From Planctomycetota bacterium (GTDB lineage: Bacteria; Planctomycetota; Uabimicrobiia; Uabimicrobiales; Uabimicrobiaceae): a stretch of 64,000 nucleotides of DNA. The position numbers and the translations under genes were made by a program. Shown here one piece after another: positions 1,421 through 51,179 of the stretch (the stretch's first letter is position 1; every line of letters starts with the position of its first letter). The notes beneath the pieces are model-generated. The model was given only the letters and a program-made list of their open reading frames with translations. It was not told the DNA's origin and did no database searches. The stretch covers positions 62,001 through 126,000 of the forward strand of contig JAJDCR010000024.1 in NCBI GenBank assembly GCA_029260735.1, written 5' to 3'.

Positions 1421-1533
1421 AGGGTGTGTTGTCATTCAGCTAATATCGTTATGCAACTATAAATAGAGTAAAGAGTTATAATTGAATATGTCTAAGGAAT
1501 ATTGTAAAGAAAAGCTGAATGAGGACACGCCCT
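1421..1533. mobile_element. MITE-like element with 21-bp terminal inverted repeats
   Basis: Positions 1421-1441 (AGGGTGTGTTGTCATTCAGC and one more base) are an imperfect inverted copy of 1513-1533, with 18 of 21 positions matching. The 113-bp element has no coding capacity. Its right end carries the TAG stop codon of the FHA gene at 1532. Similar GGYGTGTC strings occur near 5013, 31430 and 36490, which hints at a dispersed family. Clear target duplications are not visible. The rest of the gap (1204-1420) shows nothing recognisable. Confidence 0.5.
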
Positions 1534-3307
1534 AATGAAACATAGGCATCAAATCATCGATACCAGCTAAATCATGTCCGTCGTGGTTTTTCGGAAATTG
1601 TTCAGCCGCATTTTTCAGCATTGTTCCTCGCTCCAGAGCATCTTGGGCATTCTTTAAGCGGGGCTCTAGAACTTTAGATATTTCTTCGACTTGAGGATCT
1701 TTGATTTTTGTTTCAATTTCCTTGATCAAACCTTTTAGCATGTTGAACTGTGCCATCAACTCTTGGATAGGAACTGTTGGTCGAGGGTTAGCTAAACGGT
1801 ACAAAGTATTGTTAGCATCAGAAAGTACCTTCACGACATAGCTAACTCTCTCTTCCGCGATAATCTCATCAAGAGGAGCTAATTGACTGCCATCATAACT
1901 GAAAGCAAAAGTTTCTCTTATCTCTTGGATCTTATCGACTCTCTCTTGAGCTTGGCTTTTACTTCTCATTGAGCTACTAAAAATCTGAGCGAGGCCATTC
2001 ATTGGTTCATTATTAATCACTTTTTGAGCACGAAGAAATTCTTTTTCGTAGATACTATATTGCTGCATAACTTCTTGAAGAGGGTTTGTCGGAGTAGGCT
2101 TAATTAAACCCATAAGAGTTTTTTCAAGATTGCCCAGTAAATAATCGACATACTGAATTCTCTTTCCTCTTTGTAAATTCTCGGCAACTTGTTTTTTATT
2201 CTCTGCTTCAGACTTTTCCAATTCTTCAAGTAGAATTCGTTCTTTTTCTTGGCGAATTTTCTCTTCCTCGGCTTTTTTAGTAGCTTCTGTAGCTTCATGG
2301 AAAGAGACTTGCTGGATGTCGTTACCAGGAGTTGTCTTCTTTTCTTCTGATGTCTTCGTTGATTTTGTATAGTTTCCGATCTTGGGATTGATGGACTTCT
2401 TTTCACTTGTAAAAACCCATTTTCCCAAAACGAAGTAATCTACAAGCAGAAAAGACAATCCTCCCAAAATTGCTGCGGCTAACAGCCAAGAGAAAGCAGA
2501 TTTTTTTGCTTTAGGTCCATCCTCTTCATCTTCATACTCTTCGTTTTGTTTTTCTTTACGTTTTTCTTTGCGTTTTTCTAAGTAAGAAAGTTCTTCGGTA
2601 GGAGCCGCCGCAGAAATTTCCTCAAAAGAGGGACTATCATCATCATCTTCTTCGTTCAAAGCCGCTTCCATTTCAGCTTGGATAGCAGCAAGCTCTTTTT
2701 TATCGATTAAAGCAAACTTGTACTTATAAGAACCAATGCTAATCAGGTCATCTTTACGCAAAGGTTTTTTAGTTATTTGGAGATCATTGACAAAGGTTCC
2801 ATTTGCACTTTTAAGATCTTCAATATAATAAAGATTTCCTTCTCGGGTAATTTTTGTATGCTGCCGAGACATCATTTTATCTACAATTTGAACATCACAT
2901 TCAGGAACTCGCCCTATGATAGTGCACTCTTTAGTCAAATCAACATTGGATGCCGTCGGAGGAAAAGTGATGAGAAGACGGCCAACCTCTTCGCTAGAAA
3001 TTTCTGTGCCTTCTACTTTCTCAAAATTAATATAAATCTTGGTGTCGCCAATATGAACCACGTCACCATCTAAAATTTCTTCCTCTGAGAATCTCTCATT
3101 GTTAACGTAAGTTCCCGAAGTACTTCCCTTATCTTTAATAAAGCAACCATCAGAAGAGATTTTAATTTCAGCGTGTTTTCGGGAAGCCTTCATGTCTCGC
3201 AAGACAATTGTATTTTCCGGAACTCTTCCTATCGAGTGAATCCCGTCTCCTAACTGGAGTTCTTGGATAACCTCGTCTTTAATGTTAATAATTTCGATAT
3301 TGAGCAT
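1532..3307 (-). CDS. Membrane-anchored protein with two FHA domains
   Basis: The protein has 591 residues. FHA domains bind phosphothreonine peptides, so it probably reads the output of Ser/Thr kinases such as those encoded at 11.4-14.3 and 37.8-42.8 kb. The first FHA domain spans about 1-95 (GRVPEN at 27-32, SRKH at 42-45, STSGTYVN at 62-69). The second spans about 110-200 (GRVPEC at 132-137, SRQH at 147-150, SANGTFVN at 167-174). A very acidic then basic linker leads to one hydrophobic segment at about 271-297. The remaining 300 residues are helical, with an E/K-rich coiled coil and two related blocks, each containing a P-T-x-P-(L/I)-Q-E element. The FHA domains should be cytoplasmic and the helical part on the other side of the membrane. 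The stop codon lies in the end of a MITE-like repeat, so the native C-terminus may have been altered. Confidence 0.85.
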   Translation of the reverse strand: MLNIEIINIKDEVIQELQLGDGIHSIGRVPENTIVLRDMKASRKHAEIKISSDGCFIKDKGSTSGTYVNNERFSEEEILDGDVVHIGDTKIYINFEKVEGTEISSEEVGRLLITFPPTASNVDLTKECTIIGRVPECDVQIVDKMMSRQHTKITREGNLYYIEDLKSANGTFVNDLQITKKPLRKDDLISIGSYKYKFALIDKKELAAIQAEMEAALNEEDDDDSPSFEEISAAAPTEELSYLEKRKEKRKEKQNEEYEDEEDGPKAKKSAFSWLLAAAILGGLSFLLVDYFVLGKWVFTSEKKSINPKIGNYTKSTKTSEEKKTTPGNDIQQVSFHEATEATKKAEEEKIRQEKERILLEELEKSEAENKKQVAENLQRGKRIQYVDYLLGNLEKTLMGLIKPTPTNPLQEVMQQYSIYEKEFLRAQKVINNEPMNGLAQIFSSSMRSKSQAQERVDKIQEIRETFAFSYDGSQLAPLDEIIAEERVSYVVKVLSDANNTLYRLANPRPTVPIQELMAQFNMLKGLIKEIETKIKDPQVEEISKVLEPRLKNAQDALERGTMLKNAAEQFPKNHDGHDLAGIDDLMPMFH

Positions 3308-9256: not shown

Positions 9257-11248
9257 CTAAGTCGTTTCAGCCGAAGGAACTTCTTGGAAAACATAATAAA
9301 CAAGAGCAATCATAGCTACAATTCCTGCAGGCAAACAAAGCCAAGGAGAAACGCCAAGGCCGATGGGGATATAGCCAAAAACGCAAGCAATTATTGCAGA
9401 AAGTAAGGCATAGGGCATCTGGGTCTTGACGTGATCAATATGATCAGCCCCACAAGCCATAGAGGACATTACCGTGGTGTCAGAAATAGGAGAGCAGTGG
9501 TCTCCAAAAGAGGCACCAGCCAAAATACTTCCGAGAGTTCCCATGACAATGTAATTGCTCGTGGTAAGCTCTAAACCTAGCTGAGCAGTGGAAAGATCTA
9601 TCGCTAAAGGGAGAACTAAAGGAAACATTAATCCCATTGTTCCCCAAGAAGTTCCCGTAGCAAAAGCAACAACAGCAGAGATGATAAAACCTAAAAAGGG
9701 GAGCATCTTTGCCGAAAGTAAGTCTTTTGTTCCATAAAAAATATAGCGGTTTGTGCCTAGCTCTGTACAAATTTCTTTGATTGTCCAAGCCATAACCAGA
9801 ACTAAAATCGCCAAAATCATGGACTTAACTCCACGAATCCAGGCATTAATAGTATCTCCCGTACTCAGAATATTCTGAGATACTGCTAAAATAGCGGCAC
9901 TTAAACCTCCCCAGAAAGCTGCCCAGAGGAGAACATCATAAGAATTAGCAGACGAAATGGAATCGCGTAAAACATAGAAAAGAGACTGATCTTTTGCCAA
10001 AGCATCCAGTTGTCTGTAGCCGTCATAAAAAAGCCCGAAGATAGCGACCATTATTACGGTAAAGATAGGAATTAATGCGTTATACCATCGACAAGGCTTT
10101 CCTTCTGGTGGTTCGATTTGTTCCATTTCTTCACTGGTTAAGGGACGGGCGTTCTCAGAAAGAACCGCTCCTGTTTTCCGAGCTCTTTTTTCCGCTTCTA
10201 GCATCGGACCAAAATCTTTTCCCGTATAGGAAATAATAAAAACAAAAATTATAGTAAAAATGCTATAAAAATGGAACGGGAGTGAGTGAAGAAAGTACTC
10301 AAACGCCTTAGTATCTTGTCCAAAAGATTCTAAAACGCTAGAAATAAGACCCAATTCATAGCCAATCCAAGTAGAGATCAAAGCGATACTACAAACAGGG
10401 GCAGCCGTCGAGTCGACGATGTAGGACAGTTTTTCCCGGGAAATCCGTAAGCGATCTGTAATAGAGCGCATGCTGTTGCCCACTATAAGAGTATTTGCAT
10501 AGTCGTCAAAAAAGATCACGATACCTAAAAACCAAGTGGAAACCATACCACCGCGAGGCGTTCGTGCTCGCTTGGAAATTCTTTCGACCATATCATGGAT
10601 ACCACCAGAGCTGGCGACAACTCCGATCATTCCTCCGATCATGAGACTAAAGACAATGATATGGACATAATCTTCGTTACTCAGAGTCGCAATAAGAGTA
10701 GTATCTACAACATAAACAAGACTATAAAACGGATTCCATCCTGCTCCCAGAAGAACATAAACTCCTACCCAAACTCCTGCAAAAAGAGAGAGCAACACTT
10801 CTTTGGTTACAATAGCTAATATAATGGCAATTAAAGGAGGTAAAATTGTTAAGATAGGAGTAAAAGAGGAAGAAGTGTTGACGGGTGTTGATTCGGTTTC
10901 ATCGACAAGAGTTACTGTAACATCAAGACCTCTTATCTCTGCTTTTTCTAAGGTCAGAACTCCTTCTTCAAAGGAAAGTTCACCTGACTTTGTTTCGATA
11001 CTTTCGACTTTATCTTTCATCGAATAGATGAAAAGTCCTTCTATTTTGACAACTCCTGAAAAATCGGAGAGAGGATTGTTCTCTTTATCGACAGCCTCTA
11101 TTGTAATTTCGCTAGGGACATAACGAGGCACAGGGGCGGAAGTACGAAATTTAACTTCCGCTTCTTGACCGGAAACAAAAGATATTCCCAAGCTCAAGAG
11201 AATCAAAAGAACAAGAAAGACGTGTTTCTTTTGCCGTAAAAAGGGCAT
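9257..11248 (-). CDS. nhaC: NhaC-family Na+/H+ antiporter with an extracytoplasmic N-terminal domain
   Basis: The protein (663 residues from the chosen start) begins with a signal peptide ending near SFVSGQE. A region of about 110 residues follows, with beta-type sequence resembling an Ig-like or bacterial surface domain (APVPRYVPSEITIEAVDKEN). A polytopic membrane domain of roughly a dozen segments makes up the rest. NhaC-family motifs include FDDYANTLIVGNSMR, STAAPVCSIALISTWIGYELG, GTSWGTMG and GDHCSPISDTTVMSS. The family exchanges sodium for protons at the inner membrane; amino-acid antiport by relatives cannot be excluded. The ATG at 11248 is chosen because AAGGAG lies 9 bp upstream; a TTG 24 bp earlier has no such site. 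A terminator of the preceding kinase gene lies just upstream. Confidence 0.85.
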   Translation of the reverse strand: MPFLRQKKHVFLVLLILLSLGISFVSGQEAEVKFRTSAPVPRYVPSEITIEAVDKENNPLSDFSGVVKIEGLFIYSMKDKVESIETKSGELSFEEGVLTLEKAEIRGLDVTVTLVDETESTPVNTSSSFTPILTILPPLIAIILAIVTKEVLLSLFAGVWVGVYVLLGAGWNPFYSLVYVVDTTLIATLSNEDYVHIIVFSLMIGGMIGVVASSGGIHDMVERISKRARTPRGGMVSTWFLGIVIFFDDYANTLIVGNSMRSITDRLRISREKLSYIVDSTAAPVCSIALISTWIGYELGLISSVLESFGQDTKAFEYFLHSLPFHFYSIFTIIFVFIISYTGKDFGPMLEAEKRARKTGAVLSENARPLTSEEMEQIEPPEGKPCRWYNALIPIFTVIMVAIFGLFYDGYRQLDALAKDQSLFYVLRDSISSANSYDVLLWAAFWGGLSAAILAVSQNILSTGDTINAWIRGVKSMILAILVLVMAWTIKEICTELGTNRYIFYGTKDLLSAKMLPFLGFIISAVVAFATGTSWGTMGLMFPLVLPLAIDLSTAQLGLELTTSNYIVMGTLGSILAGASFGDHCSPISDTTVMSSMACGADHIDHVKTQMPYALLSAIIACVFGYIPIGLGVSPWLCLPAGIVAMIALVYYVFQEVPSAETT

Positions 11249-11270
11249 CAGGCTTTTCTCCTTATACAGC

Positions 11271-11307
11271 AAAGAGGCTACCCGAAGTTTACTCGGATAG
11301 CCTCTTT
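11271..11307 (-). terminator. Rho-independent-like terminator after the kinase gene
   Basis: AAAGAGGCTA at 11271-11280 pairs with TAGCCTCTTT at 11298-11307, and the stem extends inward to about 14 bp around an AGTTTA-type loop. It lies 54 bp beyond the stop of the kinase gene and just ahead of the nhaC ribosome site. The T-run is weak, so partial read-through is possible. Confidence 0.65.
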
Positions 11308-11360: not shown

Positions 11361-14318
11361 CTAAAGAATTTCTTTCACTGTGCGAAAACCAACTACATTC
11401 CACCAATCGTTTGGCTCCATGAAGCTACGGAAAGTAACTCGTAGATGGCAAGGGTCACTATTAAAAGCTCCTCCTCGAACAGTACGTCCTTCACCGGTGC
11501 GAGGTCCTTGAGGATTACTAGCCGGAGCGGACTGGTAATAAATATCGCTATACCAATCTCGGCACCATTCCCAAACATTTCCTGCCATATCTAAGCAACC
11601 ATAAGGTGCTGCTGCATCCATATAACTACCTACAGGAGAAGGACTCCATTCTCCATACTTCGGCTCTTGGCGATAGTTACATTTCCATTGCATACCACTA
11701 TCAGGAGCTTCATCTCCCCAAGGATAGATCCGGTGAGGAGCTTGGTTTTTTTGAATCATCATATTATCGCCATCAAAAAAAGATCCTCCTCGGGCTGCTT
11801 TCTCCCATTGGGCTTCGGTGGGAAGTGATTTCCCTGCCCACTGAGCATAAGCAGTCGCATCTTCCCAGGTAACATTAATGACGGGTTGAGATTCATCTAA
11901 TTCCCAAGAAGGCAAGACGGGTTTAGGGTGACCTGTTTCTTCACAAAAATGGTTGTATTGGTACCAAGTAACAGGACATTCATCAATGAGGTAAGCATTG
12001 AGAATTGCTTCGTGTTCAGGGCCTTCTCCTAAAGTGGTTCCATCTCCTTCGTACCCCATTATAAAACCACCTGCAGGAACATGTACCATTGTGGCGCCAT
12101 CTTTTTCGCACATAATCATGTCCCCTTCCCATATGTATCCCATGGGAAGAGAAACTTTGGCGAGAGCTTGAGTGGGGCTCATGGAGCAGATTTCGGAGTC
12201 TTTTTCTTCCTTGACTAAAATTCGTCCGACACCTGGCCCTTCTGCCATTGGTGTAGCTCCTATTTCCATAGGAGAGAAAGCATCTTCTGGCTCAGCATCT
12301 TCTATTCCTATTTCCATAGGAGCAAAAGTATCTTCTTCTTCCTCTGAAAGGTCAAAAACCAGATCATTAGGAGCCTCATCAGAAGATTCTTCCAAGTCTA
12401 ACCCCATTTGGCTTAGATCCATACCGCCTTCAGGAATCATTTCCTCTTGGTCATTAGAAGCTTCGGCTTCCCATTCATCGGGAGATATTACTGTGGATTC
12501 CCCACCAAAGCCCAAGCTACTATCACTAGGCTCTTCGGTTCCTCCTAAGTCATCAGCAGAGATGATTACCGACTCTAGTTGCTCTAAATCATCCAAGTCA
12601 CCGCCTAGGCTATCTTCTTTAGGAGAGCTTGGTTTAGAATTCTTTGGCTCTTTGTCAAAGGAGTCTTCGACCTCTTCGGCAAAGATATCACCAAAATCAT
12701 CGTTGTTATCGGGTACTTCTGTTGCCATCATTACCTCTTCTATGGGATTTTCTGATTGTACAGGTTCCACTATTCCTATTGCGTCATCAAGCGATAGAGA
12801 TGCATACAATTCATTGGGCACTTCTGCCATGATTGCAGCTGCATCCACCGGTAACGCCGAAGCATCAATAGGTAACGCGGCAGCATATCCCTCTTCGTTT
12901 GATTCCTCTTCAATAGTAGCTTCACCATAGGATATCTCAAACCCTGGACTCTCTGTTGTCGTTGCTTCAGCAGACATTTCTGCTTGCTTAGCTAATTTTG
13001 AATGAGCCATATCCATTGCTCTTTCGAGGATTTGAGCTATTTTTTCCACAACTTGTGCAGCTGTATACCTATCCTGAGCATGAGGCATTAGGCAATACCC
13101 CACAAACTCTCCGACCAATTCTCTTACATCAGGAGAAAGAGCAAAAATATTTTCAGGAGGAGGAGTTTTTCCCGTAATCAAAAACATAAAGGTTTTTCCA
13201 AGACCAAAAACATCTACTCGAGGATCAAGTTTACTTCCCCCAAACTGTTGTTCAGGAGCCATGTATCCCCAAGTTCCCGCAATATTTTTTGCAATGAGAC
13301 TGTGATTAGACGTTTTGTACTCAAGAGTACGACTAATTTCATCGACGTTTGGCAACATACAAGCAATACCAAAGTCTATAATTTTGATCTCACCAGTCTT
13401 AGGATCATAGAGAATGTTATTCGGTTTGATATCTCGATGAATTATCGGCATATCTTGATTATGGACAACTGATAGGGTATCCGCTACCTCGGCAATTATG
13501 CTTAAAGCTTCTTTTACCTCAAGAGGATTACCTTTTCTTTCATCTTCCAGATAGCGTTGTAAATCCGGGCCATCAAAATATTCCATGACAATAAAAGGCT
13601 TGTTTCCTTTATGTCTCCGAATATCATAAAACCGTAATACTCTTGGGTCTTTAATTTTTTTTGCGGTAAAAGCTTCTGAAAAGACTTCTTTTAAGGTTCC
13701 TGTTACATTGCGCCAAAGAGTCTTGACGACGACTTTTCTTTCTTCGTAATTGTCGTTGCAGAGGAAGGTGACTCCCATTCCTCCTACTCCAAGAATTCTA
13801 ATAGGTGCATATCTTTCCACGTCAAAAAGATTACACTCTTCGTTTTCAGCTTCCAGTGATTGCATCATATAACTAAGGGCTGCTTCAAAATTTCCCTTGT
13901 TAATGTAAGCATGGAAAAGATTACTTTCGATCCAAGCTCTTTCAGGACGACTACTACCAGGCAAAAGAACTAAAGCTCGTCGAAAATATTCTTCCGCTTT
14001 TTCGGGCAATCTCAAAGCGTTTAGAATTACCCCCAGCTTATTTGCTAAGATCGATTTCTGAGGATTTGTATTGGGAATTTTTTCAAATAAAGCCAGAGCC
14101 TTTTCTACCTTGGGTGATTCGTCTGCTAAGTTGGCTCCCAAAAGCATGTGGGAGAACTCTACCCTGTCTCTGCCAATGACTTCCATTGCTCGCTTAATTA
14201 AGCGCTCTATTTCTTCTATGATCTCTTGGATATTTCCCAAACCAGGATTACTTTCGATGTTCAAGTGCTTCACTCTCTCATATCCCTCCGTCCAAACGGA
14301 TTTTAGTTTTTTGGACAA
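11361..14318 (-). CDS. Ser/Thr protein kinase with N-terminal TPRs and C-terminal FGE/SUMF1-like domain
   Basis: The protein has 985 residues. Residues 50-165 hold TPR-like helices. The kinase domain spans about 170-435: glycine loop GVGGMGV (176-182), Lys199, HRDIKPNN (Asp296), DFG (315-317) and the activation-segment APEQ. All key residues are present, so it should be active. An acidic linker of about 300 residues follows, rich in E, D and S. Residues 745-985 form a formylglycine-generating-enzyme-like domain (VPAGGFIMG near its start, GNVWEWCRDWY, VRGGAFNSD, NVVGFR at the end). The cysteine pair needed by true FGE is not in place (GGAFNSDPC), so this part probably binds rather than catalyses. 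The start appears to be TTG, with AGGAAA just upstream. No membrane segment is seen. It lies downstream of the FHA and CHAT genes. Confidence 0.9.
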   Translation of the reverse strand: MSKKLKSVWTEGYERVKHLNIESNPGLGNIQEIIEEIERLIKRAMEVIGRDRVEFSHMLLGANLADESPKVEKALALFEKIPNTNPQKSILANKLGVILNALRLPEKAEEYFRRALVLLPGSSRPERAWIESNLFHAYINKGNFEAALSYMMQSLEAENEECNLFDVERYAPIRILGVGGMGVTFLCNDNYEERKVVVKTLWRNVTGTLKEVFSEAFTAKKIKDPRVLRFYDIRRHKGNKPFIVMEYFDGPDLQRYLEDERKGNPLEVKEALSIIAEVADTLSVVHNQDMPIIHRDIKPNNILYDPKTGEIKIIDFGIACMLPNVDEISRTLEYKTSNHSLIAKNIAGTWGYMAPEQQFGGSKLDPRVDVFGLGKTFMFLITGKTPPPENIFALSPDVRELVGEFVGYCLMPHAQDRYTAAQVVEKIAQILERAMDMAHSKLAKQAEMSAEATTTESPGFEISYGEATIEEESNEEGYAAALPIDASALPVDAAAIMAEVPNELYASLSLDDAIGIVEPVQSENPIEEVMMATEVPDNNDDFGDIFAEEVEDSFDKEPKNSKPSSPKEDSLGGDLDDLEQLESVIISADDLGGTEEPSDSSLGFGGESTVISPDEWEAEASNDQEEMIPEGGMDLSQMGLDLEESSDEAPNDLVFDLSEEEEDTFAPMEIGIEDAEPEDAFSPMEIGATPMAEGPGVGRILVKEEKDSEICSMSPTQALAKVSLPMGYIWEGDMIMCEKDGATMVHVPAGGFIMGYEGDGTTLGEGPEHEAILNAYLIDECPVTWYQYNHFCEETGHPKPVLPSWELDESQPVINVTWEDATAYAQWAGKSLPTEAQWEKAARGGSFFDGDNMMIQKNQAPHRIYPWGDEAPDSGMQWKCNYRQEPKYGEWSPSPVGSYMDAAAPYGCLDMAGNVWEWCRDWYSDIYYQSAPASNPQGPRTGEGRTVRGGAFNSDPCHLRVTFRSFMEPNDWWNVVGFRTVKEIL

Positions 14319-14438
14319 AAGTTTCCTAAGGTTCTTTTATGAAAGACCTGCATAAAGAGAAAAACTATATAATATTATTATATCAAAAAATGTTTCGAAT
14401 CCAACAAGGAATTTTTCTAAGGAATTTTTCTAATTTTT

Positions 14439-14720
14439 CTAAGAAAGATAGAAGACAACTTCCGACTTTCCTAAAATTAATCGATCACCATCACAAAGAA
14501 TCGTTTCCAAAATTAAATTTTCATTTAGTTTGGTTCCATTTTGGCTATGTAAATCGATTAAGATATAGTCCTCTTCCACTTGAACAATTTCGCAGTGAAC
14601 TCGCGATAATTTTATGTCTTTAATGCATAATGTGCAACGAGAAGAACGACCAATTGTGGCATAGTGAGTAAAATCAACGGCTTCTTTTTTTTCAGAATTA
14701 TCAATGACCAGTCTTGCCAT
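14439..14720 (-). CDS. Small single-domain FHA protein
   Basis: From the chosen ATG the protein has 93 residues and is almost entirely one FHA domain, with GRSSRC, SRVHCEI, SQNGTKLN and LGKSEVVF in the expected order. It should bind phosphothreonine, plausibly on the kinase encoded 120 bp downstream or on its target. The ATG at 14720 has AAAGGA about 5 bp upstream; an in-frame TTG lies 15 bp earlier. It starts 26 bp after the CHAT gene, so the two are very probably co-transcribed. Very short FHA proteins of this type often serve as adaptors. Confidence 0.88.
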   Translation of the reverse strand: MARLVIDNSEKKEAVDFTHYATIGRSSRCTLCIKDIKLSRVHCEIVQVEEDYILIDLHSQNGTKLNENLILETILCDGDRLILGKSEVVFYLS

Positions 14721-14746
14721 ATAAATCCTTTCCAAGATTACAAGAC

Positions 14747-17700
14747 CTATCCATTGAGAAGCAATACACTGCTATTGGGATCCCCGGCGGCAATCTCTGC
14801 CAGGAGAATATCGCGCTTGGGAATACGTAGCTTGGCTTCACATCGAGGACAACGAGCTTTTTTCCCTGCCATCGGAAGAAAACAATTGATGTTCTCAGCA
14901 CATTTAGGGCAAATGGAACTAATCTTGACATTATCATAGGGAGTGGATTGCCCTCGGACTCGAATTTTTTTCTGGCAATGAGGACAGCGAGCTTTACCTC
15001 CTGTTTTAGGGAGGATACAGCGAATTTTATTCCCACATTCAGGACAACGAGTTTTTGCAATAATCTTACTTACCTGGGCATTTTTCTTAACCTCGTCCAA
15101 GTCAATTTTGTCTTCTTCTTTAGCGCTTTTTTTGGCCGGCTCATCGTATTTTTTTATGGCCTCATCTGTCAGAGAAGAGAGAGCTTCTTCTACATTTTGG
15201 AACTCCTGAGTCCCAACCTCTCCTTCCATATTCAGCTCTTCAATGTAAACAACGCTATCGGCCTCAAGAGGATCGCTTGCCTTATCGGAAACTTCCGTTA
15301 AACCAGCACCAAAGCAAAATAATGCTCCCCAATAACAAGGACTTTTATAAGGCTGAAATTCATCCAGTGGTGACATCTCTGGTGCAAGAAAAGAAACATC
15401 CTGCACGACTGGTAAGTAAGGGGATGTGTAAAGAATCCTTGTTGCCCGAGAAGAGTCGCGCGCTATTAAACTCTCTAAAGCTTCATCCCACCAACTATCT
15501 AATTCTGTTAAGTTGTCTATTTGTTGAAGTTGCTCAATAATTTCTGCAACAGTGATGGCCCGTAAAACATTCTGAGCCTCTTGTAAGGCCATAGCAATGC
15601 CCAGTCCTTGGCCAATTCCTTCGTAAAACTTACTCCACAAAAGAAGCAGGGCAATTCGAGGAAGAGGCCACATTGCTTGGATAAAGTTTTTTGCTCCACA
15701 GTTTAAGAAGGCTTGAGCAAAACCTGTAAACTCACCTCCATTTTCCAAAGCATAAACTTTGCGATGTCCACCAGAAAGGGTAATCACTTCGGTTTGGAAG
15801 AGCTTCAAGTTTTCCATAATGCTAGGAAGAGTGAGATACTCCGCTTCTTCAGAAGGAAGAAAGATACTCGATTGCAAAGCATCAGGAAAAACAATAGTAT
15901 TTTCTATCGCTAAGTGAGTGTAGTTATAGTCGCTAATCTCTTCGGAAACTTTTTCCCAAAGAATTTGATCTGGTTCGATCTTGTCTACTTTGTCCGGCCA
16001 ACTCTTTTCGATAAAATGAAGCTCATCAGAAAGATGAGATCCTGTTGGTTGATATGTGGCCAAGAGAAGTTGTCCATCTTCCGTTTTAGGACGCAAAGAG
16101 CTTTCCAAAAACATACGAGCAGAAGGAGCGTAGATGATTTCATAGTAATCTTGTAAGAAAATTTCATCTTCCCCTTCCTCAATCATAGGAAGGGCGTGTA
16201 TAGGACAAAGTTCCCAGAGTCCCTGCATAACAAAAACAAGATTATCGGCACAGCGATCTTCTAGGCGAACGAGAAGCTCTGGAAAAAGTTTCTGGGAAAT
16301 ACCATAATTAATTTTATTAAATTTTTCTTGCCAATTTTTATAAGCTTCCGCAGGCGTTTTCCAAGTGTATTTATCAAGTTCTTTAGCAAGTTGTTGTTTT
16401 CGCTGGACTTGACTAGGATCTTCCGCAATCGCTTTTTGTTCTCGATAACAGCGTAAAAAGTGTTCAATTTGAAAAAGAGGACGATAAAGCTTTTGCAAAT
16501 AAGAGATATTCAAATTCTCAAAACAAATTACGTCTATTTTTCGGCGATCCACTAAAAACACAATGGTTTCTTGTCCTGTAACAATAAACTCTAGAAGAAC
16601 CGTCGCCTCAGAAAGAGCATTTTGAACAGTGATAGGATCAAAGCGAAATTCGTAGCCAAAAGTAGAACTCCACCCGGGGTCTAAAACCTCTAACTGCATA
16701 CGAAACTGATCCACTTTTTCTTTATCGTCACGAAGAGTTTTTCGCATAGAAAGAAAAGACTCTTTATCTATATTCTGATCTAATTCTTCTCGGACAAGTT
16801 TGTAGAAACGATGTAGCCTTTTGAGGGCTGCTAGGTACTCTTTTTTTTCTTCGGGGTTAGCATTACATCTTTGAAGAAGATGCTTCTCTTCTAGTCTTCC
16901 AAAAAATTTCCAATACTGGGCTTGCTCGGCAAAATGCAAGGACTGAGCAGGATTCCCCATTTTCACACAACAACTAATGATTTGAGAAAAAATAAGGTAA
17001 TGCTCTTTTTGAAACTCTAAATCTTGGGGAGGAAAGTAATAGCGATACTCTTCTAATATTTTAATTCCCGCCAATAAAAAGTGACGAGCTTCTTCATATT
17101 CATCGTTCTTCAGGTAAGTTGATCCTATCTGAAAATTTAAACGAAAAAGAGTGAGCCAGTCTTCCATTTCACTGGCTAAAGGAATAGCATCTTGCCAAGA
17201 CTCGATAGCATCTTCGTTTCTCTCAACTTGGGCATAACTCATTCCTAGAACATAGAGGGTTTTGTATTCTCGAACTGTATTTTTTTTCTCTCGAGCACTT
17301 TGAAGCACTTTCAAAAAAGAGGTAATTTCTTTTTTCTTCTGCTCTAATGACTCTGGTAAAATATCTTCTTCTTCTTCAATAGAGTCAACAAACTCTTCTC
17401 CATCATCAGGTAAAGTAGAAGCAGAAGGAGGTGCTGCGAGAGGAGTAGCTACCGGAGCGGGTCTAACCGGTTCTTCCCGAGTACGGGAAGGAGTTTCTAT
17501 GTTTTCTTGGTCGATAATTCGCATAAGTTTTCGAGCTTCTTCGTAGCAACGAATAGCTTCAGAGAACTGTCCAATATCTTTGTATAGATCTCCTAGCAAA
17601 GACTGAATTTTGACTTCGCTTTTTTTCTCATTGGCTTTTTGAATAATTCTCAGGGAGTGATTGAGTTTAGTGAGAGCTTCTTCTTTTTTTCCTTCGCTAA

Positions 17701-18433
17701 CTAATTGGACAGATTCTTTGCTTAAAGTAATTGCCTCTCCTTTTTTGTCCCCTACCTTTTGGAAAAGAGCAATAGTTTTTTTATAGCCATCCAGAACGAT
17801 ACTGCTGTTATCTTCTTTTTCGTAAAGAGCCAAAAGATCGTAAGCTACTTGGCTCGCATACTCAGGGTGACTATCTGCAACTGTAGCAAAAGATTTTAGG
17901 TAAAGCTCTATTGCTTCATTCTTCTTAACCAAGCTTTGATTAAGCCAAGCCAGATTTTTTAGAGCTTGGGCTGTTTTCAAAGGAGAGTTCATATTTTGCC
18001 CAATGGTCAAAGATTGTCGATAAAAGTCTTGGGCCTGCTGAGCTCGGCCGGCATGTAAATAGCCGTCGCCATAGTATTTGTAATAACGATAAAGACTCTC
18101 TTGATCGTTATTTTCAGCGGCATAGCTTTGGCTGATACTAAAAAAATCATGAGCGGAAGTAAAGTCTTCACTCAAAAGAGCTCCCCACCCTTGCCAAAAT
18201 TTAGCCTCATGAACTTCCTTAGAAGAAAGGGTTAATTCTGCCCAGGACATTAGCAAACAAGAAAGAGAGTAGACGATACTTGGTTTTTCCTGTGCCTTAA
18301 AAGGAATTTCCACAACAATTTCTTGCCAAACTTCTTCATTTTGTCCTAGCGATTCAACCCAAGTTTTTGCTTCCTCTGTGGGAAGAATTCCTGTGGCTAA
18401 TTGTTCTGCCATCTCATAAAAGATCTCTTTCAT
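14747..18433 (-). CDS. TPR-CHAT protein with two C-terminal zinc ribbons; CHAT active site appears lost
   Basis: The protein has 1228 residues. TPR-like helices occupy about 80-310 and 370-510, separated by a Pro/Ala-rich and acidic linker (315-360). A CHAT domain (caspase-like protease fold, HetF-associated) spans about 600-1043, shown by YEIIYAPSARMF, GGEFTGFAQAFLNCGAKNF, FYEGIGQG and the final YWGALFCFGAG. In active CHAT proteases a catalytic His sits in an H-x-A-T-H motif and Cys in an L-S-A-C motif. Here the aligned stretches read THLAIEN (840-845) and LSGGH (886-890), so both residues seem replaced. The C-terminus carries two Cys4 ribbons (C1130, C1133, C1150, C1153 and C1175, C1178, C1195, C1198). 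It heads a leftward operon with the small FHA gene and the kinase, and faces away from the large GTPase gene. Confidence 0.88.
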   Translation of the reverse strand: MKEIFYEMAEQLATGILPTEEAKTWVESLGQNEEVWQEIVVEIPFKAQEKPSIVYSLSCLLMSWAELTLSSKEVHEAKFWQGWGALLSEDFTSAHDFFSISQSYAAENNDQESLYRYYKYYGDGYLHAGRAQQAQDFYRQSLTIGQNMNSPLKTAQALKNLAWLNQSLVKKNEAIELYLKSFATVADSHPEYASQVAYDLLALYEKEDNSSIVLDGYKKTIALFQKVGDKKGEAITLSKESVQLVSEGKKEEALTKLNHSLRIIQKANEKKSEVKIQSLLGDLYKDIGQFSEAIRCYEEARKLMRIIDQENIETPSRTREEPVRPAPVATPLAAPPSASTLPDDGEEFVDSIEEEEDILPESLEQKKKEITSFLKVLQSAREKKNTVREYKTLYVLGMSYAQVERNEDAIESWQDAIPLASEMEDWLTLFRLNFQIGSTYLKNDEYEEARHFLLAGIKILEEYRYYFPPQDLEFQKEHYLIFSQIISCCVKMGNPAQSLHFAEQAQYWKFFGRLEEKHLLQRCNANPEEKKEYLAALKRLHRFYKLVREELDQNIDKESFLSMRKTLRDDKEKVDQFRMQLEVLDPGWSSTFGYEFRFDPITVQNALSEATVLLEFIVTGQETIVFLVDRRKIDVICFENLNISYLQKLYRPLFQIEHFLRCYREQKAIAEDPSQVQRKQQLAKELDKYTWKTPAEAYKNWQEKFNKINYGISQKLFPELLVRLEDRCADNLVFVMQGLWELCPIHALPMIEEGEDEIFLQDYYEIIYAPSARMFLESSLRPKTEDGQLLLATYQPTGSHLSDELHFIEKSWPDKVDKIEPDQILWEKVSEEISDYNYTHLAIENTIVFPDALQSSIFLPSEEAEYLTLPSIMENLKLFQTEVITLSGGHRKVYALENGGEFTGFAQAFLNCGAKNFIQAMWPLPRIALLLLWSKFYEGIGQGLGIAMALQEAQNVLRAITVAEIIEQLQQIDNLTELDSWWDEALESLIARDSSRATRILYTSPYLPVVQDVSFLAPEMSPLDEFQPYKSPCYWGALFCFGAGLTEVSDKASDPLEADSVVYIEELNMEGEVGTQEFQNVEEALSSLTDEAIKKYDEPAKKSAKEEDKIDLDEVKKNAQVSKIIAKTRCPECGNKIRCILPKTGGKARCPHCQKKIRVRGQSTPYDNVKISSICPKCAENINCFLPMAGKKARCPRCEAKLRIPKRDILLAEIAAGDPNSSVLLLNG

Positions 18434-18500
18434 GCAATCTCTTTCTTCTAAAATTTTAGAGACTTTCGTAGAATATTTTTCTATTATAAAAAATCTGGCT

Positions 18501-18506
18501 TATAAT
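18501..18506 (+). promoter_or_regulatory. Possible -10 box of the GTPase gene
   Basis: A perfect TATAAT lies at 18501-18506 in the divergent gap between the CHAT and GTPase genes. The -35 region is only T-rich. The first in-frame ATG of the GTPase frame (18505) lies inside this hexamer, so if the promoter is real, translation must start further on. Confidence 0.4.
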
Positions 18507-18588
18507 GCAAGTAAGAAGCTTGTTATTTGGGTACCCATGGGTAGCCCTTCCTAAAATGAAAATGGATTTCAATATAAGGCTAAAAGCA

Positions 18589-21500
18589 ATGAATGCAAAA
18601 CTACCATCGTTTCCCCACCACGACGCAAGAACAAAAGTTATTGCCCTCTTAGGTTACACTGGAGTTGGTAAAACCAGTCTTATTACTGCAGGCTATTTTA
18701 AAAGCATTATACATAGCAAAGATGCTTTTACCAAAAAGTTTTTCCAGAGAATGGAAGATGAGCTGAGAACTCATGGAGAAATCCCCCTAACTCTAGGAGA
18801 AGCTTCGACATTAAACTTTATAGAACCAGACTCTCGTAACGAATTTACTTTGCAAGATTTTTCGGGAGAGCACATTAAATTAGAGCGCAAAGAAGAGGAA
18901 CATTACCAAAACTTGCTAGAACGAGCGAACCAAGCAGACGCTTTAATTTGCCTTCTGTCCGCCAGCAACTTTTATCAAAAAAGCCAAATCAACGAAGAAG
19001 TCGATGCCATTCAAACATTCGTCAATAAAATTCGAGGACTAGGAACTCGTATTCCCATCGTAGTTGTTTTAACCAAGTGTGATATTGTTCCTCGTTTTTA
19101 TACAACCATTCCTGTACTTCGTTCTTTTTGCCATTTTTTCTCTCGCCTTCCCTTTATGTCCATTCCGGCAGAAGAAGGCCTAGCTCTAACTCAAAAGAGA
19201 TTTCCTAAAATCTTTCAAGGTTTTGATTTCAGAGGAAAAGGGCCTAAAACCGTCTTCCTAGGAATGGCCTTACCTCGGCTTAATATACTAAAATCTATGC
19301 CTCGTGGTTTTAAATGGTTAAATAGAGCTTCTCGTATTCTCTTTAGCGACCCCAAGTGGCTCTTCCAGAACAGCATTCACTTAGAAAACACTTTTCATTT
19401 TTGTTTTCAGGCTATTCAAGTATCTATTTTGCGAGATCTTCTTGTCTACCACCATAAAGAAGAAGAAAACAGTAAAAAACTTTTAGAAAAATTTTCTGAG
19501 GAGCTAGTAGAAAAGCAAAGCTATGGCAAACAATTTTACTTTCATGAGTACCTTAGTCAAATTGTTGATGACACAAAAAACATCATTACAGAGGTAGATA
19601 AAGAGGTCGCTAATCTTTCTTATAGTGCAAATCGCCTTTTAAAATCGAATCTCGCTTTAGCCCAAAACTTAGAAGCATGGTTACTAGAAGCCGAAGAAAA
19701 AATACGCCGTTTTCAAAAACCTTGGAGCGAGGGCGCCAAACAAACTCTTTTGGCCTTGCGTCGAGACACCCTAAGTGAGATCCGTGAACGCTTGCACGAA
19801 CTTGTCCAATTAGCTCTGGAAGACCCTGAAAAGTCTCACTTCTATGAAATGCTCGAAACTCTCAAACTCCATCGTGACGTCGGGCATATCAGTATTTGGC
19901 AAGAAGAAGAAATCAATCTTCCCGACGTTTCTACCTTGCAAAATCAACTTCTCAATCATCTTGTTCGCTTGACTGCGCAAAGAAAAGATCTTTCTCTTTC
20001 TCTTTATGAAGAGGATCGAAACAAGTACAAGCAAATTTTTCCCGAAGGCTCCGAAAATAGACTATCCTTTTTAGACGATTTAGTCGAATGTTCCACAGAG
20101 CTCAAAAAAAGCCTAAACTCTACTAACCAAGGAACTCATGATTGGGGCGAGCAGGTCTTGCCTGCCCTAAGAAAATGGGAGAACTCTTGGGTTCGTTTGC
20201 AAACTTGCTTTTCTTTGTCCGAAGAAAGTAACGTTCGCCAAGAAAGTGAAAAAGCTGTTCTTCAGAGCCTAGAGGACAAAATCAAAGATGTTGATGATTT
20301 TCCACGCTTCTTTTTTTGGGCATCAGAGTTAAAGGAGATTCTCCGATGCCTTTCCTCCCAAGAGCAACTAGCTGAAGTGATTAGTAAAGCGGAGGAAAAA
20401 TCACAAAACCTATTGCAAGCTGAAATCCAAGAGATCAAAACAAAAGCCCAAAAAATAATCCATACAGGAAGAAACCTTCCCGAGAAACTCAAAGAGTGGC
20501 TTCAAGAATGTCACCATCGGAAAAATTTAGTCGGAAAAATAGCGGGAGAAAAAGGAAGTACCACTCTAAAGGAAACAGAGAAAGATATCCTTTTAGAAGT
20601 AAAAAAACATCTTCAAAGTTTAATGACAGAGATTAACGAAGGAGGAGCGAAACTAGCTTTTTGGAAAGCAATAGATATTCTTTATGTCTGTCAAAAAATC
20701 AGCCAAGAGAATATTTACTCAGACCATGCATTGACTCTTCCTCCCACTGTTACTTTGGAAAAAGAGGCTTTTTCTTATTTAGTCACTCTAACCTTGGAAC
20801 AGGATATTTTAAATCATATAAATTACCAAGAAGACCAAGTTAAGTTCAAAAGTATTTTAGCAGGGTCCCCTCCTCCTGCTCTAGTTAGTTTGGATGCTTT
20901 TGTTTCCACCTGGCTTTCCCTTCAGAAGAACTGTCAAAATGTTCACTCTCATCCCGTTCAAGAATGGGAGAGATTAGTCTTACTCCCTATGCGAGAACTG
21001 CATCGTTACTGGCAAGAGATTTGGCAAGAAATTGAGCAAAAAAACCGAATAGAAACCACTAGCGAAACTTCTTTATCTCAAAAAAGCAAGTTGCTCCAGC
21101 AAATTGAGACCGAGGTGACCCGATCCCTCCAGGAGCAACTCCAAAAAGTAAAACTAGAGCAACTACGCGACTGGATTCGACACCTGCGGCCTCTCCTTTC
21201 TTTTCCCGAAAACCAAAAGCTCCTAGACGAGCACTTAGAAAATGCTCAAACCCGTATCCGCAAACAATTCCAAGATGATCTCCAAGATTTTATCACTCAG
21301 TGCCAAACCTTAGCAACAGGAGCAACTAAAATTTCTCCTCAAGAAAAGGAAATAAGCGAAGAGTATTGGCAACGGTTCTTAGGAAGTGTTCAATCTTTAG
21401 AAATTAGTACGGAAAAGTTCCCCTATGCCGAGCTAACTTTAGATGAAAAAACTTTTGAAGTATACAATCTCTCCGCCCCAAACGCTTTGAAGAATTCTCT

Positions 21501-22068
21501 TAATCAGTGGGTTACAGCCTTAGAGAAATCCAAACTGCTCTCTATAAAAAAATGCCAAGAGATTATTATAGTAATTGATCATCTGAGAGAAATTTTCCGT
21601 CGCCCTCAAACCCTTCAAAGCTTGCGTAACTTAGTCGAGCAAAAGGAAAAAGACAAGCGCCAAAAAAGGAAGCATCTTTTTGTTCTAGTAGGGTTGCTGC
21701 TCCTAAGCTTAATTATTTTTGACAAGTACCAAGCTTATTCTTATGAAAAAAGAGAGATTTTGGGTCTCAACCAGTTTCGTAGTCAGTTAGTATCTGGATA
21801 TTTAGAAACAGAAGATTTAGAGCGGTGGGAACGTAAGCTGGAAGATCTAACGAACTGGGCCCAGAGCGCAAAAATCTCTCTCATCGCCCGAGAAAACTTA
21901 TTGGAACTAAGAGCTTTTCAATGGAAAAAGGGGCAAGAGAAAAAGGACTTCTCTACAGAGGAAAACACTTCCACTATAGAACGTCTAAAACGAGCAGAGA
22001 GGGGTATTCAAAAAGAAAACCCTCTTTTCAAGTCACATCTTTTGAGAGAGGCTTTAAAGGAAAAATAA
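18589..22068 (+). CDS. Large P-loop GTPase with long coiled coil and C-terminal membrane anchor
   Basis: From the chosen start the protein has 1159 residues; the frame is open back to an ATG at 18505. The GTPase domain is at the N-terminus: GYTGVGKTS (P-loop), DFSG (G3) and TKCD (G4, in place of NKxD). About 700 residues of heptad-rich helix follow, with repeated L-E/K/Q patterns. A single hydrophobic segment (FVLVGLLLLSLIIF) lies about 130 residues before the end, leaving a short acidic tail. The P-loop branch resembles TRAFAC GTPases used in bacterial conflict systems or IcmF-like proteins, but I cannot place it more closely. I prefer the ATG at 18589, which has AAGG 9 bp upstream; the ATG at 18505 lies within a TATAAT. 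Divergent to the CHAT operon. Confidence 0.75.
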   Translation: MNAKLPSFPHHDARTKVIALLGYTGVGKTSLITAGYFKSIIHSKDAFTKKFFQRMEDELRTHGEIPLTLGEASTLNFIEPDSRNEFTLQDFSGEHIKLERKEEEHYQNLLERANQADALICLLSASNFYQKSQINEEVDAIQTFVNKIRGLGTRIPIVVVLTKCDIVPRFYTTIPVLRSFCHFFSRLPFMSIPAEEGLALTQKRFPKIFQGFDFRGKGPKTVFLGMALPRLNILKSMPRGFKWLNRASRILFSDPKWLFQNSIHLENTFHFCFQAIQVSILRDLLVYHHKEEENSKKLLEKFSEELVEKQSYGKQFYFHEYLSQIVDDTKNIITEVDKEVANLSYSANRLLKSNLALAQNLEAWLLEAEEKIRRFQKPWSEGAKQTLLALRRDTLSEIRERLHELVQLALEDPEKSHFYEMLETLKLHRDVGHISIWQEEEINLPDVSTLQNQLLNHLVRLTAQRKDLSLSLYEEDRNKYKQIFPEGSENRLSFLDDLVECSTELKKSLNSTNQGTHDWGEQVLPALRKWENSWVRLQTCFSLSEESNVRQESEKAVLQSLEDKIKDVDDFPRFFFWASELKEILRCLSSQEQLAEVISKAEEKSQNLLQAEIQEIKTKAQKIIHTGRNLPEKLKEWLQECHHRKNLVGKIAGEKGSTTLKETEKDILLEVKKHLQSLMTEINEGGAKLAFWKAIDILYVCQKISQENIYSDHALTLPPTVTLEKEAFSYLVTLTLEQDILNHINYQEDQVKFKSILAGSPPPALVSLDAFVSTWLSLQKNCQNVHSHPVQEWERLVLLPMRELHRYWQEIWQEIEQKNRIETTSETSLSQKSKLLQQIETEVTRSLQEQLQKVKLEQLRDWIRHLRPLLSFPENQKLLDEHLENAQTRIRKQFQDDLQDFITQCQTLATGATKISPQEKEISEEYWQRFLGSVQSLEISTEKFPYAELTLDEKTFEVYNLSAPNALKNSLNQWVTALEKSKLLSIKKCQEIIIVIDHLREIFRRPQTLQSLRNLVEQKEKDKRQKRKHLFVLVGLLLLSLIIFDKYQAYSYEKREILGLNQFRSQLVSGYLETEDLERWERKLEDLTNWAQSAKISLIARENLLELRAFQWKKGQEKKDFSTEENTSTIERLKRAERGIQKENPLFKSHLLREALKEK

Positions 22069-37750: not shown

Positions 37751-40700
37751 ATGGATAAAACATCGCCAGAACAACAAGATCGACAATGCCAGATCATTTT
37801 GCATACCTTAAACTCCATGGGGTTTTATGACAAAGAGCAAGTTCTTGTTCTCTGGCAGCAGTGGCAGAAAAAGCCTTCGCAAACAACTCTTTCTCCCTCT
37901 CAGTTTTTGACCCAAGTAGGAGTCACTCCTGATTCTTTACAGCAAGTAATTCAGCAATTACGACAAAAAGCAACCAATCTAAAAGTCAGTACAGACTCTC
38001 CTAACAATGCCCCAGAAATTCACACTGCAAATCAAAAATTGGCCGCAGAACTACATCGCTCTGGCTTAATTGGTGCAGAAACCCTTCAAGTTTTTTTGCA
38101 AAAATGCAATCGAGAAAAATCTAACTTAGGGCAGACTCTTGTTCGAGAACATCGCTTAGGTATGTCTGAGTTAATTCAAGCAATAAAACGTATCTCTAAT
38201 TGTCGCCATGAGGAAACTCTACTCGCCCAAGTTAATGTTAATGTTAATGAGAATGTTAATGTTAATGTTAATGAGAATAAAGGAGAAAAAAACAGTTCTC
38301 CTTTATTAGAGCAAAAATTTCCTAATTATCGCTTAATTCGCGAACTTGCTCGGGGAGGAATGGGGATTGTCTATCTTGCTCAAGAACTTAGTTCAGAACG
38401 GATGGTGGCCTTGAAAGTTCTTCTGGCCGGAGATGATGCTAACCAAACAGAAATAAAACGTTTTTTTCGAGAAGCTCGTGCTATTGCCCAGATCGATGCT
38501 CCGAATATTATTCCGATCTATGACATGGGAAAACAGGGGGAATATCCTTACTTCACCATGAAATACATCGAAGGGAAAACGCTTGAGGATCTCTTAAAAA
38601 ATTCATCTAAAAATCCACGTCCGACGATTAAAATCCTCGAAAAAATAGCTCGGGCCTTGGCGGTAGCTCATGAAAAAGGTATTTTACACCGAGACATTAA
38701 GCCTGCTAATATTTTAGTGGATGCGGACAAAGAGCCTTACCTCGCGGATTTTGGCTTAGTCAAAGTCATTGATAGCAACACCCAACTAACTATGACCGGT
38801 ACTGTTATGGGAACTCCTTTTTACATGTCACCAGAACAAGTAAACGCCGAGAGATCTTTAGATCATAGAAGTGACATTTACAGTTTGGGAATAATTCTTT
38901 ACCAATTATTAACGGGAAAATTGCCTTTTGATGCCAATACTTTACCTGCTTTGTATGAAAAAATACTCTACGAAGAACCTATTCCGCTAAAGCATATTGT
39001 AAAAAGTATCAACCGAGATATCAGTTTGATTTGCACGAAAGCAATGGATAAACTTCCCAGTTTGCGCTACCAAAACGCAAAAGAACTAGCCGATGACTTG
39101 CAGAGATACCTAAATAAAGAGAAGGTTTCCGCTCGACGTGTCAATGTCAGAAAAGTCGCTCACCAAGGACAACGCTACTATCAGAGAAACTTTTTTTGGC
39201 TAAACCTGGGGGGAACTCTATTTTTTTTAACTCTCTTCCTCTGGTTCGGTTGGCAAAAAATACAAGACAAAAATTATTTAGAACAAATAGAGAAGAGAAA
39301 TCAGGCAGGACTCCGGTGCGCTCAAGCGGAAGAGCTTCTTTTAAAGAAAAAATATGCAGCCGCATTAGAGCTGCTGAGGAAAACGACAACAAACTTTCCT
39401 CAGTCAGCCCAAGCCCATCTATTGTTGGGACGCACTCACATGGAGCTAGAGAATAATCTAGAAGCAGATAGAGAATTTGCCCAAGCTCGGCTAAAAGCTC
39501 CTCAAAGCCATGAGACTCTCTATTACTCTAGTCTTTTCTTTTATAAGCAAAAAAAATCGAAAGAAGCTCTTACTTTAATTGATAGAGCACTTCAATACAA
39601 AAAAGATTTCTCAGAGGGCTATCGTTTGCGCGCTTCTATTTATCGAGAAGTAGGGGAAGAGGTTAAATCAAGTCAAGATATAGCAAAAGCAAATGATCTA
39701 GAAACAAAAAATTTAGAAGAAGAGATAAAACAAGCTCTTGCTCTTCAAAATAGCGAGAACTTTACTCAAGCTTTAGCTATTTTTGACAGGATATTACACC
39801 ATTATCCCAATAGTGAGGTCGCCTACTTACAAAGATCTCAAATCCTCTATGGGAAAGGAGATATTCATCAAGCTTTAGCAGATGTTTCTAAGGCTCTGGA
39901 GCTAAATCCTAAGTACGAGTATCATTTTCTCAAAGGAAAGTGGCTAGAAGAGTTAGGGCACACTAAAAAAGCTCTCTTTCACTTCAAAGAAGCTTATGAG
40001 CTTACAAAGAAAAAAAAAGAGCGAGAGCTCAGTCAGGAAAAAATAGCACATCTTTTTTTACTTCAAAAAGAGTATAAACAAGCTATTGTTCATTACGAGA
40101 CTCTTTGGGCAAGCGGAGTAAATTCAGCATCTCTCCACCTAGGGTTAGCCCAGGCTTTTTATCATCAAAAAAAATATCCTGATTCGGCCAAACATTTAAA
40201 AAAGACCTTATCTTTTCCTGCCTTACCAGATATATCTAAAGCCCAAGCTTTCTATCTTTTAGGAAAAATTTCTCAGCAAAAAAAAGACTTAGAGACCACT
40301 CTTAATTACTGGCATAAAGCTTATAATTTGGCCCAAGATAGAATACCTAGTTTACTCTATGAGCTAGGGCAAATTCATTTTGAAAAAGAAAACTGGCTCC
40401 AAGCCGAGAATTTTTTATCTTCTTCTATTGTCAGAAATCCTCATAACTACCAATCTTTCCGTCTACTGGGAGATAGTTATCTGAAGCAAAGTAAATATTC
40501 TCAAGCAACAGATGCCTATAGTAAATGTATCCAGCTCAAGCCTTGGGTCGCAGAAAACTATCAACAAAGAGCTCTTTCTTTTCGATTAATGGGACAATTT
40601 CAAGAAAGTCAGAGGGACTTTCTCAAAACCATCGAGTTGCTCCCCGAAAATTTTGATAAGGTAGTGGATTTTTTTGCCAATACACAAGAAGAAACCGATC

Positions 40701-50400: not shown

Positions 50401-51179
50401 CCCAAGAGAATATGGAGCAAGGCAAAACAAGTGAAGCCATTGAGAATCAGCAAGAGGCTATAGAAAACATGGAGCAAACTAAGGAGGAGATAGAAGAAGA
50501 AAAAGCTCGCTACGAAAACTTGCGGCAAGAGCAACTTCTTTTTGACCTAGAAGCCGAGTTAAAAGATATGCTCAAAGCCCAAAAAGAAATCAATGAAAAA
50601 ACTTTAAGTTTATATAAGACAAAAGAAAAATTTGGTTTTACTCGTCGTAGTCTCAGAGACTTGATAAACTTAAAAGGAGATCAAAGCACTCTTTTGACCC
50701 AGTCAGAAGAAGTTGTCAAAACTCTCAAAGAAGAAAGAAGCCAGGTCTTTGGTTGGATCATGGAGCGAGTCAAAGTCAACATGGATGAAACAGTGAAGAA
50801 CTTGGCTCGTAAAGAAGTCGGCCCGCTCACTCAGTCTCTCCAATCAGAAGTTGTCGAGAAAGTAACCCAGTTAATTGCCACTCTCCAAGAAGAGCAAGAT
50901 CGGCGTAAACAAGAAAAGCAAGAGCAACAAGGGCAAGAAGGACAAGAAGGGCAACAGCAGTTGGAAGAAAAAATCCTTCCGCCAATTGCAGAGCTCAAAA
51001 TGTTGCGCGACATGCAAATTGCCATCAAAGACAAAACCCTCAAGATCTACAACCAAGTGAAAGAGAATAAAAGTCTAGATGAGTTTTCTCGCCGTCGTCT
51101 AGAAAGACTCGGTCATGAAGAAGGTGATTTGGCCGAAATCACAAAACGTTTTATTGAGTCTTTAGAGAACAATCGTTAA
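47436..51179 (+). CDS. Giant exported coiled-coil protein (E/K/Q/A-rich)
   Basis: The 1247-residue protein starts with TTG at 47436, backed by AGGAGG 8 bp upstream. Residues 7-30 form a signal peptide (FLLALILTSGIIFSPLSGQEN). The rest is almost entirely helical, with heptads of L, M, A and many K, E, Q, for example LQKQMAEASKKMEEAAQLAQ. The helix type resembles long periplasmic rods, but no named family fits. Near residue 1040 a less charged segment (RRSLRDLINLKGDQSTLLTQ) interrupts the coil, and the end reads RRRLERLGHEEGDLAEITKR. It follows the DUF4175-like gene by 12 bp and probably works with it. Low-complexity composition means homology searches will be unreliable. Confidence 0.85.
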   Translation: MIPLDKILSKTFLLALILTSGIIFSPLSGQENRSIQEKKLIQAQKNIQQMLDEIAEKMKRVEKRLIKEGREDEAEKLRQAMDKILYNFGSEGDLKDPLRDDMSKVLKDIQNGHNRLAMQRLSIIHEKLETLIDFLLDRTAQDDIDEKLKETRELAEKTAKTIEKQKKIQQESKKVEKEQKENLSQDLKDIQKESKELAQEQKELQEKTKESAKNVDPELQKMQNDLEKLQEDQAQVQEDTKKAEELPSTQEQLKEIEKLTSEQREVTEQLQEFTEQQEWQKQLEEMMEKQKELTQLKQNQSQEEAGKKEQEEKLQELQELSEAAANLRKEQEKTVEQTEKSAALANLKEKLEDLQNRQEKANRALKVMKERDINNAAFNRRLGRGQKRLADAAKELAKNLQKAAEDKDIQELAENTPSQDVSKSAKEMAEMLEKAAQDMDKAVEMAENSDLNQMEEKQADAMQKLSAAMDALKEKPELLDLGKKASEQLEKRQKEHEQAAQQLANNLEKIAPQKEALEKTPEWAKLAQEKMKEAYDKLSEKNPEEAVKKQETALEFLSAVEDSLNKSIEKESQKKGGEFQNSLSQAQKSLAEKLAQMSEQNQAQKGNKEDLQKQMAEASKKMEEAAQLAQDGSQEKRIEAQKEAQKALEKAFEEAQANKTPAPDKEWLEEQKKIAENAKKLADALAKKPELAEAIKKALPDMEKAFDEVKEKKFPEAQADSTRALAQLEQAQKMLQEKLSEQMKSAGQAQIEQEALEQTSRRLARELKDMQEKHQGKPSAQSMEKALQEMKEASESMNQANQELNKDNLANAKEQQNKAQQKMQEASKALEQVQDKQQNSQEKTNESLAQNQENLNKKAEQLQKKMENMMNSPKVSGENKKKLEEAKKMLEEAQEKMKKSLKRLKKKRPKEAEQDQKEAQEALAKSEKLLSEMKNESLTQNQQQRMQKLKEEQKKVEEEAKKLAKELERLKRKKAAESTKKASEEMAQAQENMEQGKTSEAIENQQEAIENMEQTKEEIEEEKARYENLRQEQLLFDLEAELKDMLKAQKEINEKTLSLYKTKEKFGFTRRSLRDLINLKGDQSTLLTQSEEVVKTLKEERSQVFGWIMERVKVNMDETVKNLARKEVGPLTQSLQSEVVEKVTQLIATLQEEQDRRKQEKQEQQGQEGQEGQQQLEEKILPPIAELKMLRDMQIAIKDKTLKIYNQVKENKSLDEFSRRRLERLGHEEGDLAEITKRFIESLENNR

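Follow-up and report, generated by a model that had tools for sequence, protein, structure and literature searches.

The four leftward genes at the centre of this study – encoding a TPR protein with a catalytically dead CHAT domain and zinc ribbons, a one-domain FHA protein, a kinase fused to an FGE fold and an NhaC-type antiporter – are best read as an order-specific phospho-switch that bears no hallmark of defence, and whose partner contacts and output we infer. Taken as a whole, the explanation that these genes form a single operon for phospho-signalling, restricted to the Uabimicrobium order, with the large GTPase that faces them an independent gene, stands in our estimation at about an even chance of being right. 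The features on which the argument depends are collected in Table 1.

Table 1. Features of the four-gene block, of its divergent neighbour and of a second operon. Positions are those of the window unless a locus is named.
Feature	Position	Strand	Remarks
NhaC-type Na+/H+ antiporter, conserved fourth gene	9257..11272	-	PF03553; 88 bp after kinase gene
985-aa fusion of TPR, Ser/Thr kinase and FGE fold, without TM segment	11361..14318	-	Pfam; TTG start
Kinase domain, residues 171–388	13155..13808	-	PF00069, 126.9 bits, E 1.2e-36; VVVK, HRDIKPNN, DFG
FGE-fold domain, residues 742–982	11373..12095	-	PF03781 (FGE-sulfatase), 176.3 bits, E 1.1e-51
93-aa protein with a single FHA domain, predicted phosphothreonine reader	ATG 14720 to stop 14439	-	PF00498, 61.6 bits, E 1e-16
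First gene of block: 1228-aa protein with TPR, pseudo-CHAT and two zinc ribbons	14747..18433	-	Pfam TPR_12 and CHAT
Pseudo-CHAT domain, residues 714–1042	15308..16294	-	PF12770, 69.3 bits against a cut-off of 24, E 4.9e-19
Zinc ribbons and conserved tail at C-terminus, about residues 1129–1228	14750..15049	-	CPxC...CPxC pairs in sequence
DO-GTPase2-like GTPase, helical body, one TM-like segment	18589..22068	+	PF19993, 34.8 against 27 bits, E 1.8e-8
Second operon, window genome: PP2C, vWA, zinc-ribbon FHA, kinase, pseudokinase-FN3	L066:106-10289 (G000:C47)		other contig than block
PP2C, vWA and kinase part of second operon	L066:4344-10289		PP2C at L066:8040-10289

The window – the whole stretch of 64,000 nucleotides that was analysed – lies within a single contig of a draft genome of 174 contigs and 8.7 Mb. 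Comparisons drew upon six genomes of the order, labelled G000 (the window genome) to G005, most of them incomplete drafts. Completeness estimates range from 59 to 86%, and absences from these genomes are consequently soft; they are least so in the single-contig chromosome of the closest relative, Ca. Uabimicrobium amorphum SRT547 (G001; NZ_AP019860.1), a member of the same family and a planctomycete that engulfs other cells. G003, a Brocadiia MAG, represents a third genus. Elsewhere in the window, positions 47436-51179 hold a 1247-aa ORF to which no Pfam family was matched, where the AT skew is strong (0.39 to 0.51). No RNA element in Rfam was matched between positions 9000 and 26000, and a scan found promoter-like sites somewhat more often, and terminators less often, than shuffled expectation, which we do not take as evidence.

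An earlier note on this DNA had described three of the leftward genes, and for these the reading frames, the domains (now confirmed with Pfam) and the gaps (26 bp between CHAT and FHA, 120 bp between FHA and kinase) are as it claimed; the conserved antiporter gene it left out. A central issue is whether such proximity means anything in a genome where CHAT is matched 30 times, FHA 52 times and the kinase domain at least 150 times, so that loose clustering of the three would be unremarkable. We estimate roughly, at 0.004, the probability that for any CHAT gene an FHA gene read in the same direction would by chance start within 50 bp. That the clustering goes beyond chance follows from comparison with another genus, in which the order is kept amid unrelated flanks: the U. 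amorphum chromosome carries CHAT, FHA, kinase-FGE and antiporter genes in this order on one strand, and a comparison of 37 window proteins with the 30 kb around this locus returned orthologous matches for the four block genes only. Two further signalling proteins of the window, one of 591 aa with two FHA domains (1532-3307, on the strand of the block) and one of 1688 aa that combines a kinase with TPR and HEAT repeats (37751-42817), gave generic domain matches only. The CHAT–FHA pair recurs in the third genus, G003, and its spacing passes from 26 bp in the window to 2 bp in U. amorphum and an 8 bp overlap in G003. Kept side by side between genera, these genes suggest a dedicated switch.

The complete block is nonetheless known from two genera, the window genome and U. 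amorphum, and the linkage of kinase and antiporter likewise. It could therefore be argued that CHAT and FHA are a real pair and that the four genes are otherwise co-inherited neighbours without a common pathway, kinase-FGE and antiporter being adjacent through shared ancestry of the family only. This would account for G003, where the pair lacks an adjacent kinase gene (it lies on another contig), for G002, where FHA and kinase genes are on different contigs, and for the 120–186 bp that separate FHA from kinase. Indeed, the separate kinase of G003, together with the altered kinase of G002, the failure to find a CHAT gene in that genome and the position of its FHA gene beside a sensor-like gene, are points against a single operon. 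Yet the four genes have stayed together although nothing of either flank has kept its arrangement from one genus to the other, and protein identities of 27–58% within the block mark that separation as long. We thus think mere co-inheritance unlikely, though it deserves some weight.

The first gene of the block departs from the CHAT peptidases at the active site. The CHAT fold itself is recognized well above the Pfam cut-off, and eight strong CHATs of the same genome carry H-x-A-T-H-G and L-S-A-C-[ED]-T-G at the active site. The window protein has HLAIEN and LSGGH in place of the His-Cys catalytic dyad, and the label "pseudo-CHAT" that had been given to it is correct. Its orthologues read HLALHS and FSANE in U. 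amorphum and HFGIYG and LSASE in G003; the cysteine is thus missing from all three and the histidine from two of them. These three are the only full-length orthologues found among 294 genomes of the phylum, the remaining matches spanning the CHAT domain alone. Identity between the window and U. amorphum proteins is 27–30%, and reaches 67% over the last zinc ribbon – a motif that Pfam matches weakly – and the tail. An AlphaFold model from a three-sequence alignment was weak for the CHAT half (mean pLDDT 45); a fold search with this model gave separase as a marginal best match (E 8e-4). Profile searches of the PDB in this study returned TPR proteins or insignificant matches. The pseudo-CHAT protein resembles the TPR-CHAT proteases in the succession of TPR and CHAT fold and in the best structural match of the weak model, but has lost the dyad and carries, as a tail, two zinc ribbons with a conserved C-terminus. 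A planctomycete TPR-CHAT protein at L025 (G018:C39) reads LSATEC at the cysteine position and LAARS at the histidine position, which suggests that dead CHATs arise repeatedly.

The kinase-FGE protein is found in five of the six genomes of the order and is 49% identical between the window and U. amorphum. VVVK, HRDIKP and DFG are kept in the kinases of the window, U. amorphum, G003 and G004 (with SVVK in G003). The G002 copy (L056:1-3777, G002:C44) has HRY for HRD and DIG for DFG, and with the catalytic Asp lost it is probably a pseudokinase. In the FGE half, the segment RGGS...C....C contains two cysteines which we take to be the active-site pair of the enzyme; the window protein lacks them (RGGAFNSDPCHL), as do the proteins of U. 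amorphum, G003 and G004. As judged from these residues, the FGE-fold domain is probably non-enzymatic. We also considered that the protein might be the variable protein of a DGR, and rejected this: a DNA search of its own draft genome found no template repeat matching the FGE C-terminus, and the short matches that were found are most plausibly paralogous FGE genes. Nor is the kinase a MAD6 of the MADS system, scoring 110 bits against an equivalog cut-off of 460.

Orthologues of the FHA protein were likewise found in five of the six genomes; the core residues are invariant across these five, and identity between window and U. amorphum is 48%. At the G002 locus (L049:8776-11245, G002:C19) a gene for a 733-aa PAS/Hpt sensor-like protein lies a few bases further on, in the place of kinase-FGE. 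A tested precedent for a TPR-bearing kinase that acts with a small FHA protein exists in PknG and OdhI/GarA of Actinobacteria (PMC8546545), and the block shares with that system both a soluble, TPR-carrying Ser/Thr kinase and a small FHA-only reader or substrate. The two also differ. Some 20 residues precede the FHA core and no ETTS phosphosite was found among them, the OdhI equivalog is matched at 34.9 bits against a cut-off of 200, the TPR of the kinase is N-terminal, no rubredoxin domain is seen and an FGE fold is added, as is the pseudo-CHAT partner.

Across the divergent gap lies the GTPase, which the earlier note had counted as a member of the cluster. Its ORF opens at 18505 (18505-22068, + strand; 1,187 aa), and ATG 18589 is the likelier start because orthologues begin at ORF residue 29; the intervening gap is then about 155 bp, in agreement with the 150 bp reported before. 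The motifs GYTGVGKTS, DFSGE – with the Walker B glutamate – and TKCD are intact. Of the "coiled-coil GTPase with a C-terminal membrane anchor" that had been described, one hydrophobic TM-like segment is seen (near residues 1054-1072), but the body is better termed all-helical; an AlphaFold model from three aligned sequences was weak (mean pLDDT 59, G domain unfolded) and its fold search returned generic helical proteins. The family occurs in three of 294 genomes of the phylum. No member turned up in the single-contig U. amorphum chromosome, and in G003 and G005 the gene lies away from the block, flanked in the latter by a WD40-type kinase gene and an apparent rpsB. The earlier note had named scattered orthologues in relatives as what would refute its cluster; within the family CHAT, FHA and kinase-FGE withstand this check and the GTPase does not; on linkage we ruled it out as a member of the system, and it is probably an independent neighbour only.

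This bears directly upon the suggestion that the locus is a four-part conflict (defence) system resembling those centred on DO-GTPases, with a GTPase switch, a CHAT effector or scaffold, and kinase and FHA regulators. The suggestion draws upon the DO-GTPase2 match with its Walker B glutamate, upon the presence in the window genome of FN3, PP2C, vWA and kinase genes of the kind that accompany some GAP1-N2 systems (PMC7159879), and upon the occurrence of CHAT and FGE folds in conflict systems (PMC10907252). However, GAP1, the partner that defines DO-GTPase systems, was not found when GAP1-M (PF20014) was sought in all six genomes of the order, although a control genome was matched; the GTPase shows no N-terminal zinc ribbons, is unlinked to the FN3, PP2C and vWA genes in G000, G003 and G005, and is linked to the block in no other genome. 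Moreover the CHAT is dead, no DGR was found, and the kinase-FGE and pseudokinase-FN3 genes are near-universal and low-copy in the order, not patchy. Searches with PADLOC and NCBIfam models gave no convincing match – those from PADLOC fall on generic kinase domains or TPRs – and no defence model was matched at a curated cut-off where one exists. The earlier hint of a conflict system is accordingly weak, and we regard a defence role as improbable.

The antiporter invites a different reading. As the last gene of the block it is conserved, more strongly than the other three, with 58% identity to the gene at the same place in U. amorphum. The kinase could conceivably control ion transport directly, the operon then being a sodium/pH regulator whose antiporter is gated by phosphorylation and by FHA binding. 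The case for such gating is linkage in two genera, and we give this version little credence. In U. amorphum a gene that reads as glutamate dehydrogenase (gdhA, L039:1262-2620) is convergent to the antiporter gene; a link to a GarA-like metabolic target through it was set aside, the gene being convergent and not conserved in the window.

A finding that may widen the phospho-switch came from U. amorphum, where 9 bp upstream of the CHAT gene lies a gene for a 1405-aa pseudokinase with FN3 repeats and, further upstream on the same strand, genes for a kinase, a zinc-ribbon FHA protein, a vWA protein and a PP2C phosphatase. Across the three genomes compared (G000, G001 and G002) these five genes occur in the same order; alignments show PP2C, kinase and MIDAS motifs intact in each, and the vWA protein is 68% identical. 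Each of the six genomes of the order has one copy of the pseudokinase-FN3 gene, which is absent from the 143 other genomes of the phylum that were sampled. The junction of second operon and block is seen in U. amorphum alone; we take it as a hint, drawn from a single genome, that both operons serve one pathway. Its vWA (with a DISGSM MIDAS motif), PP2C and kinase genes recall the TerY-P triad, in which the kinase carries a C-terminal zinc ribbon (PMC11090510), and zinc ribbons are present in the set; here, however, the kinase stops just past its kinase domain without such a ribbon, FHA and pseudokinase-FN3 genes are added, and the window block itself has none of the three triad members. The block thus resembles the logic of PknG-OdhI and TerY-P while meeting the definition of neither, and in the literature searched we found no system with the gene order CHAT, FHA, kinase-FGE, antiporter.

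For the phospho-switch that we favour, a plausible course of events can be proposed. The kinase-FGE protein may use its TPR and its non-enzymatic FGE fold to sense a ligand or a protein, and would then phosphorylate itself or a partner. On the resulting phosphothreonine the small FHA protein would dock, with the dead CHAT protein perhaps serving as a TPR/zinc-ribbon scaffold that holds kinase, FHA protein and target. The PP2C phosphatase of the second operon could reset the switch, and the antiporter is by linkage a candidate output, or may be merely co-transcribed. More tentative still, and on balance doubtful, is the idea that both operons form a nine-gene phospho-switch private to the order to which the cell-engulfing planctomycetes belong. 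Its parts would be two kinases, two FHA readers and a PP2C eraser, with a vWA protein, a pseudokinase and a dead caspase-like protein as scaffolds.

The kinase-reader-scaffold block shows that TPR-CHAT and FGE folds can both be kept without their enzymatic residues. For Ca. Uabimicrobium amorphum, 525 Ser/Thr kinases have been predicted (PMC11032199); little is known of which components cooperate, and the block is a candidate pathway. If the nine-gene switch is real, the pathway would be a dedicated one, with a possible role in engulfment, surface behaviour or membrane energetics, and it would open a way into the very large kinase network of this lineage.
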